A stretch of DNA of 64,000 bases from an uncultured Bacteroidia bacterium (GTDB lineage Bacteria; Bacteroidota; Bacteroidia; Bacteroidales; UBA932). The notes beneath the pieces are model-generated. The model was not told the DNA's origin and did not search any database. It saw only the letters and a list, made by a program, of their open reading frames with translations. A program made the translations under genes and the position numbers. Positions 54,737 to 60,655 of this stretch are shown in pieces (position 1 is the first letter of the stretch; every line of letters starts with the position of its first letter). The DNA lies in NCBI GenBank assembly GCA_902790635.1, contig CADASN010000013.1, positions 32,408 to 96,407 of the forward strand, read 5' to 3'.

Positions 54737-55127
54737 GGGAGGCTGTTTCGCCCCTGGCAGCGTCAATTTCTGCTTCCCGGGGGCAGGGAGGGGTCACTTT
54801 GCCCCTGGCAGCCGTTTCCCGCTTGCCAAGAGCTCCGGAAGGGCGGCCTTTTGCTCTTTCCGGGAGGCCCCGTTGCCGGAAGTTGCAGGCAACCGGGCTG
54901 ACGTCGGAGAAGGGCGGGACTTTCCGCCTCAGTTGCTGGACGGCTGACTCCTCCTTTTTGGCCAGGCCCTGCGGTCCTGCCCAACAGTCGTCGGACAGAC
55001 GCCGTCCTGCTCTTTCGTCGCCGGCGCCGGAGGATGCTGGGGCATCCATCCGCGCCGTCTCCTCATTCGCACCGCTGCCTTCGCCGGGTCCCGCTGTCCC
55101 TTCTCCTCCTGATCGCCCGGCCGCCTG

Positions 55128-55149
55128 CACTTCCGGCGCGCGGGGCGCT
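55128..55149 (+). repeat. Direct repeat, right copy
   Basis: CACTT then CCGGCGCGCGGGGCGCT, the partner of 54715-54736. Together they bracket about 390 bp, which could be the remnant of an inserted unit. Confidence 0.75.
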
Positions 55150-55184
55150 ACCCGGCACAAGGGATTGGGGAACAAGGCCAGGGA

Positions 55185-55240
55185 ATCGGAGCGAAGCGAC
55201 GCAGGGGAGTCTGAGGGGGAACGCCCCCTCAGTCATAGGC
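55185..55240 (-). repeat. GC-rich hairpin repeat, copy 2a (beside pyrB)
   Basis: Plus-strand sequence: ATCGGAGCGAAGCGACGCAG, then GGG, a hairpin CTGAGGGGG-aacg-CCCCCTCAG (55211-55232), then TCATAGGC. Copy 2b at 59066-59119 has the same blocks in the same order and orientation. Both copies end directly at a palindrome. Confidence 0.8.
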
Positions 55241-55286
55241 GTATTGCGATAGCAAAGTCCGTTAACGGACTTTGCTATCGCAATAC
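55241..55286. repeat. 46-bp perfect palindrome spanning the pyrB stop codon
   Basis: GTATTGCGATAGCAAAGTCC at the left end is matched exactly as a reverse complement at the right end, with no loop (centre GTTAAC, 55261-55266). The right arm encodes the last residues of PyrB (YCDSKVR). The left arm is an inverted copy outside the gene. The pyrB stop codon sits at the centre. No T run follows, so it is not a standard terminator. Confidence 0.85.
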
Positions 55287-56341
55287 CAGCAGCGGTAGAT
55301 GCCGTTCTCGGCCAGGCGGAAGCGGCGCTCGTGCTTCTCGTTGTTGCAGATACACTTGGCGTTGGTGCAGTGCAGCGACGGGTTGAGGACGGGAGCTTCG
55401 TGCTCGGGCATGGTGTGCGCCGGGTCGTTCTTCCACTCCATCAGACTGATGATGAGCGCCATACGGACGAGCTTTCCGTTCTCGACCTGACGGAAATAGG
55501 CCGCCCGCGGATCGTCATCGACCTCCGTGAGGATCTCGTTGACGCGGGGCAGCGGGTGCAGCACCGCCATCTTCTCCTTGGCCAGCGCCATGCGCCGGTT
55601 GTCCAGCACAAAGCTGTCCTTGACGCGGTCGAACTCGTCCTCATCCAGGAAGCGCTCCTTCTGCACGCGCGTCATATAGAGGACATCCAGCTCCGGGATC
55701 GCCTCGTCCAGCGAATCCGTCTCGCGGTACGCCACGCCCATCTTGTCGCAGACATCCTGCTTGATATAGTCCGGCAGGCGCAACTCATCCGGCGCGATCA
55801 GCACGACCTTGATGCCGCGGTAGCGGGACAGGGCCTTGATCAGGGAATGGACCGTGCGGCCGAAGCGGAGGTCGCCGCAGAAGCCGATGGTGATGTCGTC
55901 GATGTGGCCGAGCTCGCGCTTGATGGTGAGCAGGTCGGTGAGGGTCTGGGTCGGGTGGCTGTGGGAGCCGTCGCCGGCATTGATGATCGGCACCTGGGAC
56001 ACCTCGGAGGCGACCAGTGGCGCCCCTTCGATGGGGTGCCGCATGGCGATGATGTCGGCGAAGCAGCCGACCACGCGGACGGTGTCCTGCACCGTCTCGC
56101 CCTTGGCCGCGGAGGAATTCTGGGGATTGGAGAAGCCGAGGACCTGGCCGCCCAGCTCCATCATGGCCGCGGTGAAACTCAGCCGCGTGCGGGTGCTCGG
56201 CTCGTAGAACAGGGTAGCCAGCTTCTTGTGGGCCATGCTGCCCTGATAGCGCTCGCGGTGGGCGATGATGTCTTCGGCCAGGGCGATGATCTGGTCGATT
56301 TCTTCCTTGCTGAGGTCGGTGGGATCGATGAGGTGTTTCAT
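55262..56341 (-). CDS. pyrB: Aspartate carbamoyltransferase with C-terminal zinc-ribbon tail
   Basis: ATCase condenses carbamoyl phosphate and aspartate, the second step of UMP synthesis. The 359-residue product starts MKHLIDPTDLSKEEIDQI, overlapping the pyrE stop (ATGA). Catalytic motifs: LFYEPSTRTRLSFTAAMMELGG (carbamoyl-phosphate loop), RHPIEGAP, INAGDGSHSHPTQTLTDLLTI, HPLPRVNEI. The usual chain ends near residue 305. Here about 50 more residues contain CTNAKC...CWYC, matching the four-cysteine zinc domain of the regulatory chain PyrI, but without PyrI's nucleotide-binding domain. The 3' end lies in a 46-bp palindrome. It is last in the pyrimidine operon. Confidence 0.95.
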   Translation of the reverse strand: MKHLIDPTDLSKEEIDQIIALAEDIIAHRERYQGSMAHKKLATLFYEPSTRTRLSFTAAMMELGGQVLGFSNPQNSSAAKGETVQDTVRVVGCFADIIAMRHPIEGAPLVASEVSQVPIINAGDGSHSHPTQTLTDLLTIKRELGHIDDITIGFCGDLRFGRTVHSLIKALSRYRGIKVVLIAPDELRLPDYIKQDVCDKMGVAYRETDSLDEAIPELDVLYMTRVQKERFLDEDEFDRVKDSFVLDNRRMALAKEKMAVLHPLPRVNEILTEVDDDPRAAYFRQVENGKLVRMALIISLMEWKNDPAHTMPEHEAPVLNPSLHCTNAKCICNNEKHERRFRLAENGIYRCWYCDSKVR

Positions 56342-56946
56342 AATGAATTGCGGAAATCCAGGATCTGTTCTTTCTGTGCGGGGGTGATATAGTTGTTCTC
56401 GACGGCCACGTCCACGAGGGTGTCGAGGTTGCTCAGCGAATGATTGACGACCTGTGCGGCGGCGAGCCGGTCCAGGCCCTTGCGGATGCCGTAGGTGAAG
56501 ATGCTCACGATGCCGAGCACCTCGGCGCCTGCTTCGCGCAGCGCATTCACGACGTCGATGACGCTGCCGCCCGTGGAGATGAGGTCTTCGACCACGACGA
56601 CCTTCGTGCCGGGGTCCAGCCGGCCTTCGATGCGGTTGGTACGGCCGTGGCTCTTGGCCTCGCCGCGCACGTAGCCCATCGGCAGGCCGAGCAGGGTGGC
56701 GGTGATGGCGGCGTGGGCGATGCCGGCGGTGGAGGTGCCCATCAAGGCTTCGCACTGCGGGAAATGCTCCCGGACGAGGGAAGCGAGTCCGGCCTCGACC
56801 AGGTTGCGCACGGCGGGGGCGGACAGGGTGAGGCGGTTGTCGCAATAGATCGGACTCTGGATGCCGCTGGCCCAGGTGAACGGCTCCTCGGGACGGAGGA
56901 ACACGGCTCCGATCGAGAGGAGTTCTTTGGCGATGAGTTTCTGCAT
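56338..56946 (-). CDS. pyrE: Orotate phosphoribosyltransferase
   Basis: A 202-residue enzyme converting orotate and PRPP to OMP. Motifs: FTWASGIQSPIYCDNR, LMGTSTAGIAHAAI, GYVRGEAKSHGRTNRIEG and the PRPP loop VVVVEDLISTGGSVIDVV. It lies between pyrF (3-nt gap) and pyrB (4-nt overlap). Confidence 0.96.
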   Translation of the reverse strand: MQKLIAKELLSIGAVFLRPEEPFTWASGIQSPIYCDNRLTLSAPAVRNLVEAGLASLVREHFPQCEALMGTSTAGIAHAAITATLLGLPMGYVRGEAKSHGRTNRIEGRLDPGTKVVVVEDLISTGGSVIDVVNALREAGAEVLGIVSIFTYGIRKGLDRLAAAQVVNHSLSNLDTLVDVAVENNYITPAQKEQILDFRNSL

Positions 56947-56949
56947 ATC

Positions 56950-57654
56950 TTATGGATTCAAAAATTCTTGGAGGCACCTCTCATAGGCGGCCACCGGGTC
57001 GGCGGCTGCTGTCACCGGGCGGCCGACCACGATGTAGTCGGAACCGATCTCCCGGGCGCGTGCAGGGGTGGTGATGCGCACCTGGTCATCCTTGGACGCA
57101 TCCGCGAAACGGATGCCCGGCGTGATGGTGAGGAAGTCCGGACCGCAGGCCTGCTTGACCATGGCCGCTTCCAGCGGCGAGCAGACGACGCCGTCCAGGC
57201 CCGCCTCGCGGGCGTTCTGCGCGTATTTGACGATGGTCTCGTTGATGCCGGCTCCGATCAGCAGCTCCTGCTGCATGCGCTCCTCGCTGGTGGAGGTAAG
57301 CTGGGTGACGGCGATCAGCAGCGGCCGGGAGCCATCCTCCCGGGTCAGGCCTTCCAGCGCGGCGCGCATCATCTCGATGGTGCCGGCGGCGTGGACGTTG
57401 CAGATGTCCACGTCCAGGCTGGAAAGCACCCGCATCGCCTTTTTCACGGTGTTGGGGATGTCGTGGAGCTTGAGGTCCAGGAAAACGGGATGTCCGCGGC
57501 GCTTGAGCTCGCGGACGATCTCGGGCCCTTCCGCATAGAAGAGCTCCATGCCGATCTTGACGAAGGGCTTGCGCCGTCCCTCGAACGCGTCGAGGAAGCT
57601 GAGGGTCTGCTGCCTGCTGGCGAAGTCGCAGGCGATGATCACGTCTTTTGCCAT
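56950..57654 (-). CDS. pyrF: Orotidine-5'-phosphate decarboxylase
   Basis: A 234-residue TIM-barrel enzyme that makes UMP from OMP. Start [21 protein letters not shown]. The catalytic Lys-Asp-Lys block is [30 protein letters not shown] and the phosphate-binding [16 protein letters not shown] follow. It shares one base with the pyrD stop. Confidence 0.96.
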
Positions 57655-58571
57655 TATTGTACGATACCGATGATTTCTTGTAAACTATTGATTCCCAACT
57701 GATCCATCAGCGCCGGCAGGGCCTGGACGATCTCGGGGCAGGCCAGCGGGTTGCGGAGGTTTTCCGCGCCCACCTGCACGGCCGTGGCGCCTGCCATCAT
57801 CATCTCGATGACGTCCTCGGCGCGGGCCACGCCGCCGCATCCCATCACGGGGATGGCGCAGGCGTGGGCCACCTGGTACACCATCCGCAGGGCAAGCGGG
57901 AAGACCGCGGGTCCGGAGAAGCCACCCATCTTGTTGGCTATGATGGGCTTGCGCTTCCTGATATCGATGCGCATCCCCAGCAGGGTATTGATCAGCGTGA
58001 TGCCGTCCGCCCCGGCGTCTTCGCAGGCGCGGGCGATGGACACGATGTCCGTCACGTTGGGGCTGAGCTTGATGAAGACGGGCTTGCGGGTCACGGCCCT
58101 GACGGCCTGCGTGACGGCTGCGGCCGACTGCGGGTCGGTCCCGAAAGCCATCCCGCCGCCGTGCACGTTGGGGCAGGAGACATTGACCTCCAGGAGATCG
58201 ATGGCCGGGCATGCGTCCGCCCGGGCGCAGTTGAAGGCGTATTCCTCGACGCTGTAGCCGCTGATGTTGGCGATGATGACCCCGTCGTAGATGCGCCGCA
58301 GGGCGGGGGCCTTGTCGGTGACGAGCGCCTCGATGCCCGGGTTCTGCAGGCCCACGGAGTTGATCATCCCGGCGGTGCATTCGGCAATGCGCGGGGTGGG
58401 GTTGCCGAAGCGGGCCTCGCGGGTGGTCCCTTTCAGGGAAATGCCGCCCAGCACGTTGAGGTCCATCGTATCGGCGAGTTCGAGCCCGAAGCCGAAGGTG
58501 CCGCTGGCGGGTACGACGGGATTCTTCAGCGGCAGGCCGCAGAGGCTGACGGAAAGGTCTTTCGCTACCAT
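57654..58571 (-). CDS. pyrD: Dihydroorotate dehydrogenase, catalytic subunit (class 1B)
   Basis: A 305-residue FMN enzyme of the PyrDB type, which works with PyrK. Motifs: [33 protein letters not shown] with the active-site Cys of class 1, [35 protein letters not shown] and [29 protein letters not shown]. It overlaps pyrK by 7 nt. Confidence 0.96.
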
Positions 58572-59386
58572 AGTACTTCCTCCTTGTCGAAAACGGGGCC
58601 GTCGGCGCAGACGCGCCGGGGGCCGGATGCGGTCTGGACGGTGCAGCCGTAGCAGAAGCCGGCGCCGCAGCCCATCCGCTCCTCAAGGCTCACTTCGCCG
58701 GGAGCGTCCAGGGCGGCGCACACCGCCTTCATCATCGGCAGCGGGCCGCAGGTGTAGAAGCGGTCAAAGGCGGGCTTCACCGCCGCGACGGCGTCGGTCA
58801 CGAAGCCTTTCGTGCCTACGGAGCCGTCGAGCGTGGCGATGTGGACCGGCACGCCGAGCGCGCGCAGTTCCTGCTCCAGGCAGATTTCGTCCGCGCGGTT
58901 GAAGCCGAGCACGGCGGTCACTTGCCTGCCCAGCGCCAGCAACTCCCTGGCCAGCAGGTAGAGCGGAGCCGCACCGAGGCCGCCGCCGAGCAGCAGCGCC
59001 GCCTCGCGGCACTTCTCCGGATGGAACCCGGAGCCGAGGCCGGCCAGTCCCGTATCGGCGGGAGGATTCGGAGCGAAGCGACGCAGGGGGTCCGGGGGGA
59101 ACGCCTCCCGGTCATAAGCCGAGCTGCAAAGCAGCTCGAGTACCGAGCCTGGCGGCATCGCCGCCAAGGCTCGTGTGCCTTCGCCGACCACCTTATAATA
59201 GAGCACCACCCCGTCGGGCAGCGAGTCGCTGACCGAAATGGGACGGCGCAGGTAATAGCCGGGAATGGCGATGTCCACGAACTGTCCGCTGCGGATCGCG
59301 ACCGGCCCGTCCGTGCGCAGCACGAGGCGGAACGTGTCCCGGGCCACGAGGTCATTGCATTCGATCTTGAAAATGCGTTTCTGCAT
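58565..59386 (-). CDS. pyrK: Dihydroorotate dehydrogenase electron-transfer subunit
   Basis: PyrK carries FAD and a [2Fe-2S] cluster and passes electrons from PyrD to NAD. In 273 residues: FAD domain (YYLRRPISVSD near 48), NAD domain (AALLLGGGLGAAPLYLLARELL), and the cluster ligands CGAGFCYGCTV...CADGPVF at the C-terminus. About residues 83-107 (CSSAYDREAFPPDPLRRFAP...) are absent in relatives, which go from the LELL strand almost directly to GxLGxGF. This segment is encoded by repeat copy 2b and its hairpin. The frame is kept, so the protein is probably functional. Confidence 0.94.
   Translation of the reverse strand: MQKRIFKIECNDLVARDTFRLVLRTDGPVAIRSGQFVDIAIPGYYLRRPISVSDSLPDGVVLYYKVVGEGTRALAAMPPGSVLELLCSSAYDREAFPPDPLRRFAPNPPADTGLAGLGSGFHPEKCREAALLLGGGLGAAPLYLLARELLALGRQVTAVLGFNRADEICLEQELRALGVPVHIATLDGSVGTKGFVTDAVAAVKPAFDRFYTCGPLPMMKAVCAALDAPGEVSLEERMGCGAGFCYGCTVQTASGPRRVCADGPVFDKEEVLW
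59066..59119 (-). repeat. GC-rich hairpin repeat, copy 2b (inside pyrK)
   Basis: TTCGGAGCGAAGCGACGCAG, then GGGG, hairpin CCGGGGGG-aacg-CCTCCCGG (59092-59111, one G-T pair), then TCATAAGC. It differs from copy 2a by several changes that keep the hairpin paired. It is translated on the minus strand as AYDREAFPPDPLRRFAPN. Confidence 0.8.
59120..59138. repeat. Hairpin abutting repeat copy 2b
   Basis: CGAGCTGC-aaa-GCAGCTCG is a perfect 8-bp hairpin. The arm farther from the repeat encodes the pyrK residues LEL; the nearer arm is its inverted copy. It has the same position relative to the repeat as the 46-bp palindrome of copy 2a. Confidence 0.7.
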
Positions 59387-59389
59387 AGG

Positions 59390-60655
59390 CTATGCGGCTT
59401 GCCAGACGGGTTCTCCGTCCTTGAGGGTCAGTACGATGCGGCTGCGGACGGCCTTGCCTGCGAAGGGCGTGGCCTTGCCGAGCGACAGGAAGTCCGCCGG
59501 ATCCACGGTCCAGGCGGCGTCGGGATCGATCACCGTGAGGTCGGCGGCCTCGCCGGGGCGCAGGCCGCCGGAGAGCCGGAAAGCGTTGCAGGGGCCGGTG
59601 GTCAGGGCCTCGATGATGCGTTCCAGGCTGACCCGGCCGGTCAGGACGAGGTCGGTATAGAGCACCGCGAAGGCCGTCTCCAGCCCCACGATGCCCATGG
59701 CGCTGCCGGCGAGTCCGCGGGATTTCTCCTCGGCGCTGTGCGGCGCATGGTCGGTGGCGATGGCATCGATCGTGCCATCCTTGAGGCCTTCGATGAGGGC
59801 TTCGCGGTCCTCGGCGCGGCGCAGCGGGGGATTCATCTTGAAGCGTCCGTCCTCCTGCAAGTCGTCTTCGCAGAGGGTGAGATAGTGGGGGCCGGTCTCG
59901 CAGGTGACGCGCACGCCGCGGGCCTTGGCCCGGCGGATGAGTTCCACGCTCTCCGCGCAGGAAATGTGGCAGACGTGGTAGCGGCAGCCGGTCTGCTCCG
60001 CGAGGAGCAGGTCCCGCCGGATCTGGCCCCATTCGCTCTCCGAGCAAATGCCTTTGTGGCCGTGGGCGGCTGCGTAGCGACCGTCATGGATGTAGCCGCC
60101 GCGCAGCAGGCTGTTGTCCTCGCAGTGCGCCGCGATGATGACGTCTTCGCGGGCGGCGGCTTCCATGGCCCGGCGCATCATCGCTTCGTCCTGCACGCCG
60201 CTCCCGTCGTCGGAGAAAGCGGCGCAGCGCCCTTTCAGGGCTGCGAAATCCACCAGTTCCAGGCCCTTGCGGCCGCGGGTGATGGCTGCGTACGGGAGGA
60301 CGCGGATGCATGCGTCGCGGTCGATGATCTCCTGTTCGAGGGCCAGGGTGTCCGGACTGTCGGGCACCGGGTTGAGGTTGGGCATCGCGCAGACGGTGGT
60401 GTAGCCGCCGTGCGCCGCTGCCAGGGAGCCGGTGCGGATGGTTTCTTTATAGCTTTGTCCGGGTTCGCGGAAATGGACGTGGATGTCGGTGAAACCGGCG
60501 GATACGAAGCGGCCGCTGCAGTCGGTGACTTCGGTGCCGGAGGCGAAGATGATATCCGGTCCGATGGCGGCGATGCGGCCGTCCCGGATCAGGACATCCC
60601 CCCGCCGCTGTCCGCTGCCGTCGAGGAGGATGCCGCCTTTGAGGAGTCTGTCCAT
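59390..60655 (-). CDS. pyrC: Dihydroorotase
   Basis: A 421-residue class I amidohydrolase that closes carbamoyl-aspartate to dihydroorotate. The metal site is SAGFTDIHVHFREPGQSYKETI (HxH); AHCEDNSLLRGG, YHVCHISCAESV and IATDHAPHSAEEKSRGLAGSAMGIVGLETAF are the other ligands. It is the first gene of the pyrC-K-D-F-E-B operon and has its own consensus -7 element upstream. Confidence 0.95.
   Translation of the reverse strand: MDRLLKGGILLDGSGQRRGDVLIRDGRIAAIGPDIIFASGTEVTDCSGRFVSAGFTDIHVHFREPGQSYKETIRTGSLAAAHGGYTTVCAMPNLNPVPDSPDTLALEQEIIDRDACIRVLPYAAITRGRKGLELVDFAALKGRCAAFSDDGSGVQDEAMMRRAMEAAAREDVIIAAHCEDNSLLRGGYIHDGRYAAAHGHKGICSESEWGQIRRDLLLAEQTGCRYHVCHISCAESVELIRRAKARGVRVTCETGPHYLTLCEDDLQEDGRFKMNPPLRRAEDREALIEGLKDGTIDAIATDHAPHSAEEKSRGLAGSAMGIVGLETAFAVLYTDLVLTGRVSLERIIEALTTGPCNAFRLSGGLRPGEAADLTVIDPDAAWTVDPADFLSLGKATPFAGKAVRSRIVLTLKDGEPVWQAA

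Follow-up and report, generated by a model that had tools for sequence, protein, structure and literature searches.

The locus raises the question of how a short repeat comes to lie against an inverted copy of the gene beside it. Two copies of a GC-rich repeat, which we call E, are present in the window (the whole stretch of 64,000 nucleotides that was analysed, from an uncultured Bacteroidia bacterium), one at the end of a pyrB-like gene and the other inside a pyrK-like gene, and each runs on into a palindrome with its host gene. An earlier note on this DNA had described both copies and had suggested that the element enters by a snap-back process that copies the flank at its junction. We re-found both in the sequence at the same positions, with perfect arms of 23 bp and no loop at pyrB and arms of 8 bp around a 3-nt loop, AAA, at pyrK.

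The two copies and the repeat family

In copy 1, which reads on the plus strand, the core GGAGCGAAGCGACGCAGGGG (55188..55207; conserved across 36 aligned copies) is followed by the main hairpin CTGAGGGGG-aacg-CCCCCTCAG (55211..55232) and by a tail, TCATAGGC (55233..55240), which separates the hairpin from the inverted copy. The left end is not fixed, and the copy possibly starts from a few to about 18 nt to the left of the core. The inner arm (55241..55263, plus strand) is a 23-nt inverted copy of the 3' end of pyrB, and the outer arm (55264..55286, minus strand) consists of the last pyrB codons. The host gene is on the minus strand at 55262..56340 with an approximate start (open reading frame 55262..56977), and its stop codon TAA (minus strand, 55262-55264) spans the centre of the palindrome.

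Copy 2 lies in an 84-nt in-frame open insert (59045..59128, plus strand) that makes up residues 87-114 of the pyrK-like gene (58565..59386, minus strand; 273 aa including the 28-aa insert). Its core (59070..59089), main hairpin CCGGGGGG-aacg-CCTCCCGG with one G-T pair (59092..59111) and tail TCATAAGC (59112..59119) are all on the plus strand. The inner arm CGAGCTGC (59120..59127, plus strand) is pyrK coding sequence copied inverted, and the outer arm GCAGCTCG (59131..59138, minus strand) is pyrK coding sequence for LELL. We take the two genes to be pyrB and pyrK, the former from its protein sequence. The pyrB inner arm is missing at the orthologous sites L087, L088 and L089. Residues 87-114 of pyrK are missing in the congeners G008 and G015, where the protein match continues without them, and the pyrK DNA of G008 has the empty codons and no insert.

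The window's genome (G000) is a Bacteroidales draft of 2.24 Mb in 39 contigs and is 83% complete. Where the earlier note could see only two copies, this genome holds 22 matches to the 20-nt core at up to 3 mismatches, 5 of them exact (the reversed control gave 1), and 31 matches to a covariance model, R1. With only 7 base pairs in its automatic structure, R1 works chiefly as a model of sequence. R1 matched E in 33/71 congeneric genomes, with 23 matches in G008 and 22 in G089. At up to 1 mismatch the core was found in 10/61 genomes, which are 10/37 of the same genus (our own included) and 0/24 of those in the order's other genera. Scanning the GTDB species genomes gave at least 117 stretches with the core. 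Among the matches listed (80 of at least 117), 50 were to all appearances from Bacteroidales or Bacteroidia, many of them from rumen, and 30 from others, mainly Pseudomonas and Burkholderiales.

The order within E is the core (TTC)GGAGCGAAGCGACNCAGGGG, the GC hairpin and a short tail of the form T-N-A-N-T, with a leftward extension, TTGAATCGAAGGACTTC, in some species. The compensating changes that had been noticed between the hairpins of the two window copies extend to the family, as the two sides of the stem vary in concert among copies (CTGAGGGGG/CCCCCTCAG, CCGGGGGG/CCCCCCGG, TTGGGGGA/TCCCCCAA). E holds this one main hairpin internally and has no terminal inverted repeats in 36 copies; the longest complementary word between the two ends was 2 to 5 nt, and 2 to 6 nt after shuffling. 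Neither E nor the palindromes matched an Rfam family at the gathering score in window positions 54900-59400 and 10 loci, where only tRNA and rRNA passed and the sub-threshold matches were to microRNA or plastid models. No larger parent element was evident when 600-nt flanks of 143 copies were compared all against all (best 40 of 135 left and 40 of 162 right matches), and we read these best matches as orthologous loci or tandem copies. Further repeats common to a group were seen in the left flanks of L005, L012 and L015. We read E as a mobile repeat of about 50-70 nt, short, non-coding and dispersed, that belongs to one Bacteroidales genus, many members of which are from rumen.

Several minor features of the family were also seen. 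Tandem E copies occur at L005, L018, L032, L124, L147, L201, L221 and L229, and at L032 the repeated unit is E plus its inner arm (E-X-E-X-X'). A second, variable small stem (GTCTGTCGAAGAC-like) whose two sides seem to covary comes right after the main hairpin in L042, L160, L161, L231 and others outside G000. Close to E, the left flanks of L004, L008 and L021 have a further dispersed motif resembling CCCGATCAAGTCGGGGATGAC or CCCGGGTCAAGCCCGGGGTGACG. The Burkholderiales loci (L128, L129, L132, L139 and others, with Acidovorax-like records) have a core GGAGCGNAGCGACNCAGGGG after GGGGGAA or similar, with no hairpin and no flank palindrome, and are perhaps another repeat family.

Inverted copies beside E and comparison with empty sites

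To count palindromes we used a set retrieved by the core only, with identical sequences removed, and kept 96 copies with a hairpin of at least 5 bp. Orthologous copies were counted separately, copies with short flanks or N were dropped, and loci from L201 on were unsorted by taxon. We scored perfect inverted repeats starting 26-56 nt after the core. On the hairpin side there were 64/96 copies with at least 8 bp, 55/96 with at least 10 bp and 39/96 with at least 12 bp, compared with 14/96, 6/96 and 4/96 in the mirror test on the left side. Dinucleotide shuffles reached these lengths in 10/480, 2/480 and 0/480 cases, which bears out for the family the earlier judgement that a 23-bp match is beyond chance. 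The remaining 32/96 copies have no repeat of at least 8 bp on the hairpin side. Copies without a recognised hairpin gave 11/26 at 8 bp or more and 7/26 at 10 bp or more. With look-alike cores from other bacteria, the right side gave 0/25 at 8 bp or more and the left side 6/25 at 8 bp and 0/25 at 10 bp.

In the window's own genome, 13/22 core matches have a perfect inverted repeat of at least 8 bp starting 30-54 nt after the core. Most copies thus carry a palindrome, and it differs from site to site as the earlier note had predicted, with the exception of a tandem pair at L015 that has a common one. The 9/22 copies without an 8-bp repeat include L005, L014, L017, L021 and L010, the last of which has 14 bp with one mismatch. 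We also looked for a general direct repeat of the palindrome region to the left of E and rejected it; exact matches of at least 8 nt were found in 11/76 cases, compared with 1 in a control 200 nt away, and several of the 11 were in tandem E arrays.

We also compared sites with E and their orthologues without it. The 18 filled sites were 13 of the 15 genes where E lies beside a protein gene reading toward it, together with pyrK and four in-gene sites, the latter picked from copies with a palindrome; the other two genes, L006 and L032, yielded no empty orthologue and stayed outside the comparison. By automatic scoring, a repeat of at least 8 bp touching the conserved part of the gene was found in 14/18 filled and 3/59 empty sites (Fisher 2e-9). 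The filled sites without one are L010, L014, L021 and L040 (4/18), and the empty sites with one are L098 (10 bp), L118 and L092 (8 bp each). We left out of the empties L086 (pyrB of G015, which carries E with 2 mismatches), L038 (which carries E) and L081 (early stop in the frame read). Also left out was L085, the 3' end of pyrB in G008, which has a 15-bp palindrome and no visible E; counting it gives 4/60, and E has possibly been lost there later. No E core within 5 mismatches was found in the 59 empties except a 5-mismatch stretch in L107.

The individual pairs are clear. The aroG-like site L001 reads GAACTTTGGGTC-TAGC-GACCCAAAGTTC, 11 nt, E and TAGC, and its relative L091 has no inverted copy. 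At L036, AGGATAAGAAGTTCAGATGAACTTCTTATCCT precedes E between what we take to be rsgA and a MatE-like gene directly after it, and in the relatives L105, L106, L109 and L119 the rsgA stop runs straight to the next gene. Other clear filled and empty pairs are L008/L096, L010/L090, the SDR pair L033/L103 and rsgA L036/L105. As a side observation, L107 and L108 have a tract CAGATCCTTCGTCGC...CTCCTCAGGATGACA from rsgA to the next gene where G019 has E, and the tract in L107 is weakly like the E core.

Along the strand leading from the target into the element, the clear filled sites have the layout A-B-A'-E-(B)-D and the relatives A-B-D, where A stands for host sequence and A' for the inverted copy of it, B is the loop and (B) a direct repeat on the far side of E at a few sites. 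A' adjoins E on its hairpin side, changes with the host sequence from site to site and is absent in most empty orthologues. As few of the empty orthologues have the palindrome, the inner arm was newly copied from the target in inverted orientation, during the insertion or later, and this part of the earlier reading stands.

E could instead enter beside hairpins that were already there, such as terminators or cruciforms, and the palindrome would then belong to the target. The available excerpts on YPAL of Yersinia report it in or beside dyad symmetry (PMC2229807), tRNA terminators are frequent neighbours of E, and for L004, L015 and L025 the relatives already have a natural hairpin, shorter or imperfect, that E sites only extend or make perfect. 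At L004 the natural hairpin of 10 bp in the empty L098 becomes 13 bp with E; at L015 and L025 both arms are within coding sequence. However, with only 3/59 empty orthologues reaching 8 bp, and with arms that run into tRNA bodies and conserved coding sequence in the middle of genes, we consider this choice of target improbable as the source of the palindromes. The empty orthologues rule out its simple form for most coding sites, although it may still explain where a fold-back starts.

The palindromes could also be artefacts of assembly or amplification (fold-back chimeras), as G000 is a draft and many of the GTDB scan records are metagenome bins. But the same sites recur in different genomes with 81-94% flank identity (L158/L258, L029/L255, L154/L176), the palindrome is mostly at one end of E and open reading frames are kept, so we give an artefact hardly any credence.

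tRNA sites and copies inside genes

The outer arm is ordinary coding sequence at pyrB and pyrK, as the earlier note had said, but elsewhere it is often a tRNA end with its terminator. Around 120 E copies we counted the tRNA genes lying at up to 160 nt; 19 face the hairpin side by their 3' end and 0 by their 5' end, and one further gene is on the other side of E. In the fetched loci we surveyed 37 distinct tRNA genes with enough downstream sequence, 19 of them with E within 160 nt; only identical sequences were collapsed, so that orthologues are included (four tRNA-Leu and four tRNA-Arg). The outer arm enters the tRNA by at least 4 nt in 11/19 genes with E compared with 1/18 without, and the lone case without E, L024, ends in GTTTCACTCACTGGG, like the E tail. 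Where arms enter the tRNA, a natural terminator has thus been lengthened beyond its T run by sequence copied from the end of the tRNA. At L225 the T-arm is copied and the loop is the whole terminator. By inspection, a GC-rich stem with a T run is present at the gene end in many tRNA sites and not at pyrB, pyrK or the in-gene sites.

Frames stay open through E in tsaB (L185, L231), a methyltransferase (L158, L258, L265), tatD, mnmA, purL, ksgA-like genes (L154, L176, L193) and pyrK. This listing was mechanical and includes antisense and chance frames, and the gene names are those we presume from the translated sequences. In purL, mnmA, tatD and the methyltransferase, a single in-frame insert comprises E and the inverted copy of the adjacent codons, and a little of the target is lost. 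Five in-gene sites (pyrK, methyltransferase, mnmA, purL and tatD) were compared with their empty orthologues; for the tsaB copies L185 and L231 there was no empty orthologue among the matches listed.

Many copies lie at gene 3' ends, and the palindromes could accordingly be RNA hairpins kept by selection as terminators or 3'-end stabilisers, since an E that separates a gene from its old terminator would make a new hairpin necessary. The arms covary in some orthologues, as such selection would have it. Perfect copies of 10-23 bp of existing sequence are, however, unlikely to arise stepwise, and the in-frame copies in the middle of genes need no terminator. We therefore think it very unlikely that selection for hairpins made the palindromes.

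Proposed insertion, known elements and candidate enzymes

Direct duplications of about 4 to 36 nt are present at a few sites. Copies of the gene end lie directly past E at L010 (36 nt) and L008 (12 nt), and at L001 GCTA is on both sides of E by eye. The duplication at L036 is 5 nt against L105 and L109 but -10 and -72 against two other relatives, and elsewhere too the length varies with the empty reference (25 and -6 at L021; 7, -8 and -13 at purL). In-gene sites other than purL have small losses or no duplication, and L033 gives 0 or -42.

We think it probable that E inserts with a folded-back 3' end of its target as the primer. The target would be broken or nicked so as to leave the 3' end A-B, and this end would fold over where a natural hairpin (a terminator, for instance) or a short run of complementary bases allows it; at L036, for example, TTCAGATGAA offers a 4-bp fold, and at tRNA genes the terminator provides one. 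The folded end would be extended along A to make A', and the polymerase would then go on onto E, as RNA or single-stranded DNA, from its hairpin end. The cut would be staggered, with the opposite strand cut a few to some tens of nt away, and joining of the other end of E to the sequence beyond it would give direct duplications of variable length. The order of events, with the copying placed at the insertion rather than after it, is inferred, as is the enzyme. Unfavourable to this reading are the 4/18 filled sites and 32/96 copies that have no 8-bp repeat, the palindrome of L085 with no visible E, and the hairpins that L004, L015 and L025 owe in part to their targets. One-time copying alone does not account for the covarying arms, for a copy without a palindrome at L153, or for duplications of which few are clear and whose estimates change sign. 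Arms covary in orthologous filled sites (tsaB L185/L231, L022/L038, tRNA-Leu L023/L026, pyrB G000/G015), and this calls for a further process as well, be it arm correction by template switching, selection or re-insertion.

The copying could instead be a second step. E would insert in the ordinary way, and its GC hairpin would later stall replication so that a template switch copies the flank inverted, as in quasipalindrome-type mutation. Such mutations are known to arise when the template is switched between imperfect inverted repeats, which also keeps arms alike, according to the available parts of PMC7202029 and PMC8604942, and some orthologous sites have arms that covary. The same tRNA-Arg gene has E in both L153 and L232 and a palindrome only in L232; in L153, E directly abuts the tRNA end with neither palindrome nor terminator between, and the missing terminator hairpin suggests a deletion. 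Against two steps, the repeats are mostly on the hairpin side (64/96 against 14/96 on the left at 8 bp), and many copies have a short tail separating the hairpin from the inverted copy. At L001, L008, L010 and L036 the sequence of the loop or gene end is repeated directly past E, which links the palindrome to the insertion. We regard the two-step course as unlikely, while noting that it shares synthesis by fold-back or template switch at inverted repeats with what we propose. Compared with quasipalindrome mutations as these excerpts present them, E palindromes are tied to one repeat family and mostly to one end.

Each insertion seems to keep a readable trace in its inverted copy, its loop and in part a direct duplication, which makes a route primed by fold-back testable from sequence and at the bench. 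E also creates new hairpins where genes end and adds in-frame peptides to conserved enzymes.

For short bacterial repeats such as Rickettsia palindromic elements (RPE) and YPAL, the means of movement is, to our knowledge, unsettled. RPE reportedly have counterparts in Wolbachia, to go by the title of one study. As far as the available excerpts go, RPE are short dispersed repeats of 105-146 bp that occur between genes as well as within conserved genes, where they are in frame, and the model for them is a long stem-loop bounded by terminal inverted repeats (PMC2229807, PMC10969869). E resembles what is described there in lying in frame in conserved genes with the frame open (pyrK, methyltransferase, mnmA, purL, tatD), but it has no terminal inverted repeats and its long palindrome is specific to the target and made from host sequence. 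YPAL/RU-2 of Yersinia is given in the excerpt as a 168-bp element with internal inverted repeats and in-frame gene fusions, with target duplications that vary from 3 to 26 bp and targets that include or border on a dyad symmetry (PMC2229807). For E, a direct duplication is clear at L010, L008 and L036 and, by eye, present at L001, and elsewhere it is absent or depends on the reference. Dyad symmetry in YPAL is presented as a property of the target and the excerpt mentions no inverted copy of the flank, whereas for E prior symmetry reaches 8 bp in only 3/59 empty orthologues and is partly present at L004, L015 and L025.

Bacterial MITEs make a target site duplication of a set length. Unlike them, E has no terminal inverted repeats, and its duplications range from none or small losses to 36 nt with no set length. 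REP elements, which go with RAYT (Y1) transposases, follow a tetranucleotide rule, and E is like them in being a GC-rich hairpin repeat with a conserved end beginning GGAG; it differs in its inverted host copies and some target duplications, and in the lack of a Y1 match in G000. Palindromes in coding sequence are also described in mitochondria, with no mobile repeat in the part of the text available (PMC6649704). We could not match the mark of fold-back insertion to any described mobile element. In the open-licence literature, at the level of titles and the beginnings of abstracts, no element was described that leaves an inverted copy of its target, and with that scope the negative is weak evidence of novelty.

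For the enzyme, the earlier note had looked to a Y1-type (RAYT-like) transposase. The snap-back entry it proposed agrees with the missing inverted copy in most empty sites, but the RAYT/Y1 partner did not hold up. No Y1_Tnp (PF01797) match was found at E<=1e-3 in the window's genome (83% complete), and the weak matches in congeners, at about 20-42 bits and for the most part in frames of some 280-390 aa, extend to G007, G009, G010, G016 and G021, all of which have no E by R1. Both observations speak against such a partner.

A reverse transcriptase is the other candidate, and the findings may implicate a bacterial polymerase or reverse transcriptase capable of snap-back synthesis. It is conceivable, though we hold it only tentatively, that E is a minimal retroposon for which the folded-back 3' end of the target or of a transcript serves as primer, with a reverse transcriptase that would extend the hairpin and jump to E RNA at its 3' hairpin. 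If so, each copy of E would record its own priming event. The available text on G2L4 and group II intron-like reverse transcriptases describes snap-back DNA synthesis and microhomology end joining (PMC12337344), activity of the kind that E insertion would need. The enzyme of G000, however, is assigned to UG26 by PADLOC, and E also occurs without UG26. Comparison with target-primed, SINE-like retroposons meets the same facts: G000 has the UG26 reverse transcriptase, and 26 E-positive genomes have no close homologue of it.

The UG26 genes are on the minus strand at L244:2346-3608 (contig C23 of G000) and L245:1385-2656 (contig C13 of G008), and match the PADLOC model RT_UG26 at 1.3e-153 and 3.6e-152, respectively. 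The reverse transcriptase of G019, which is rich in E, falls outside UG26 (7e-20). The mean number of E copies is 10 in the 10/71 genomes with a UG26 homologue of at least 61% identity and 1.7 in the other 61 (p=0.007, uncorrected for kinship), with the weaker matches of G011, G074 and G030 counted as without UG26. No E core was found in the fetched flanks (about 0.15 to 1.5 kb) of 10 UG26 loci. As E is also found in genomes without UG26, we rejected it as a sure partner and treat it as a weak lead to E, not a link. Most of these 10 loci have a conserved upstream tract that starts with GAAAAAGGGGATGC and ends with CCCCTTTTTC, with complementary ends, and it resembles the non-coding RNA of other stand-alone reverse transcriptases.
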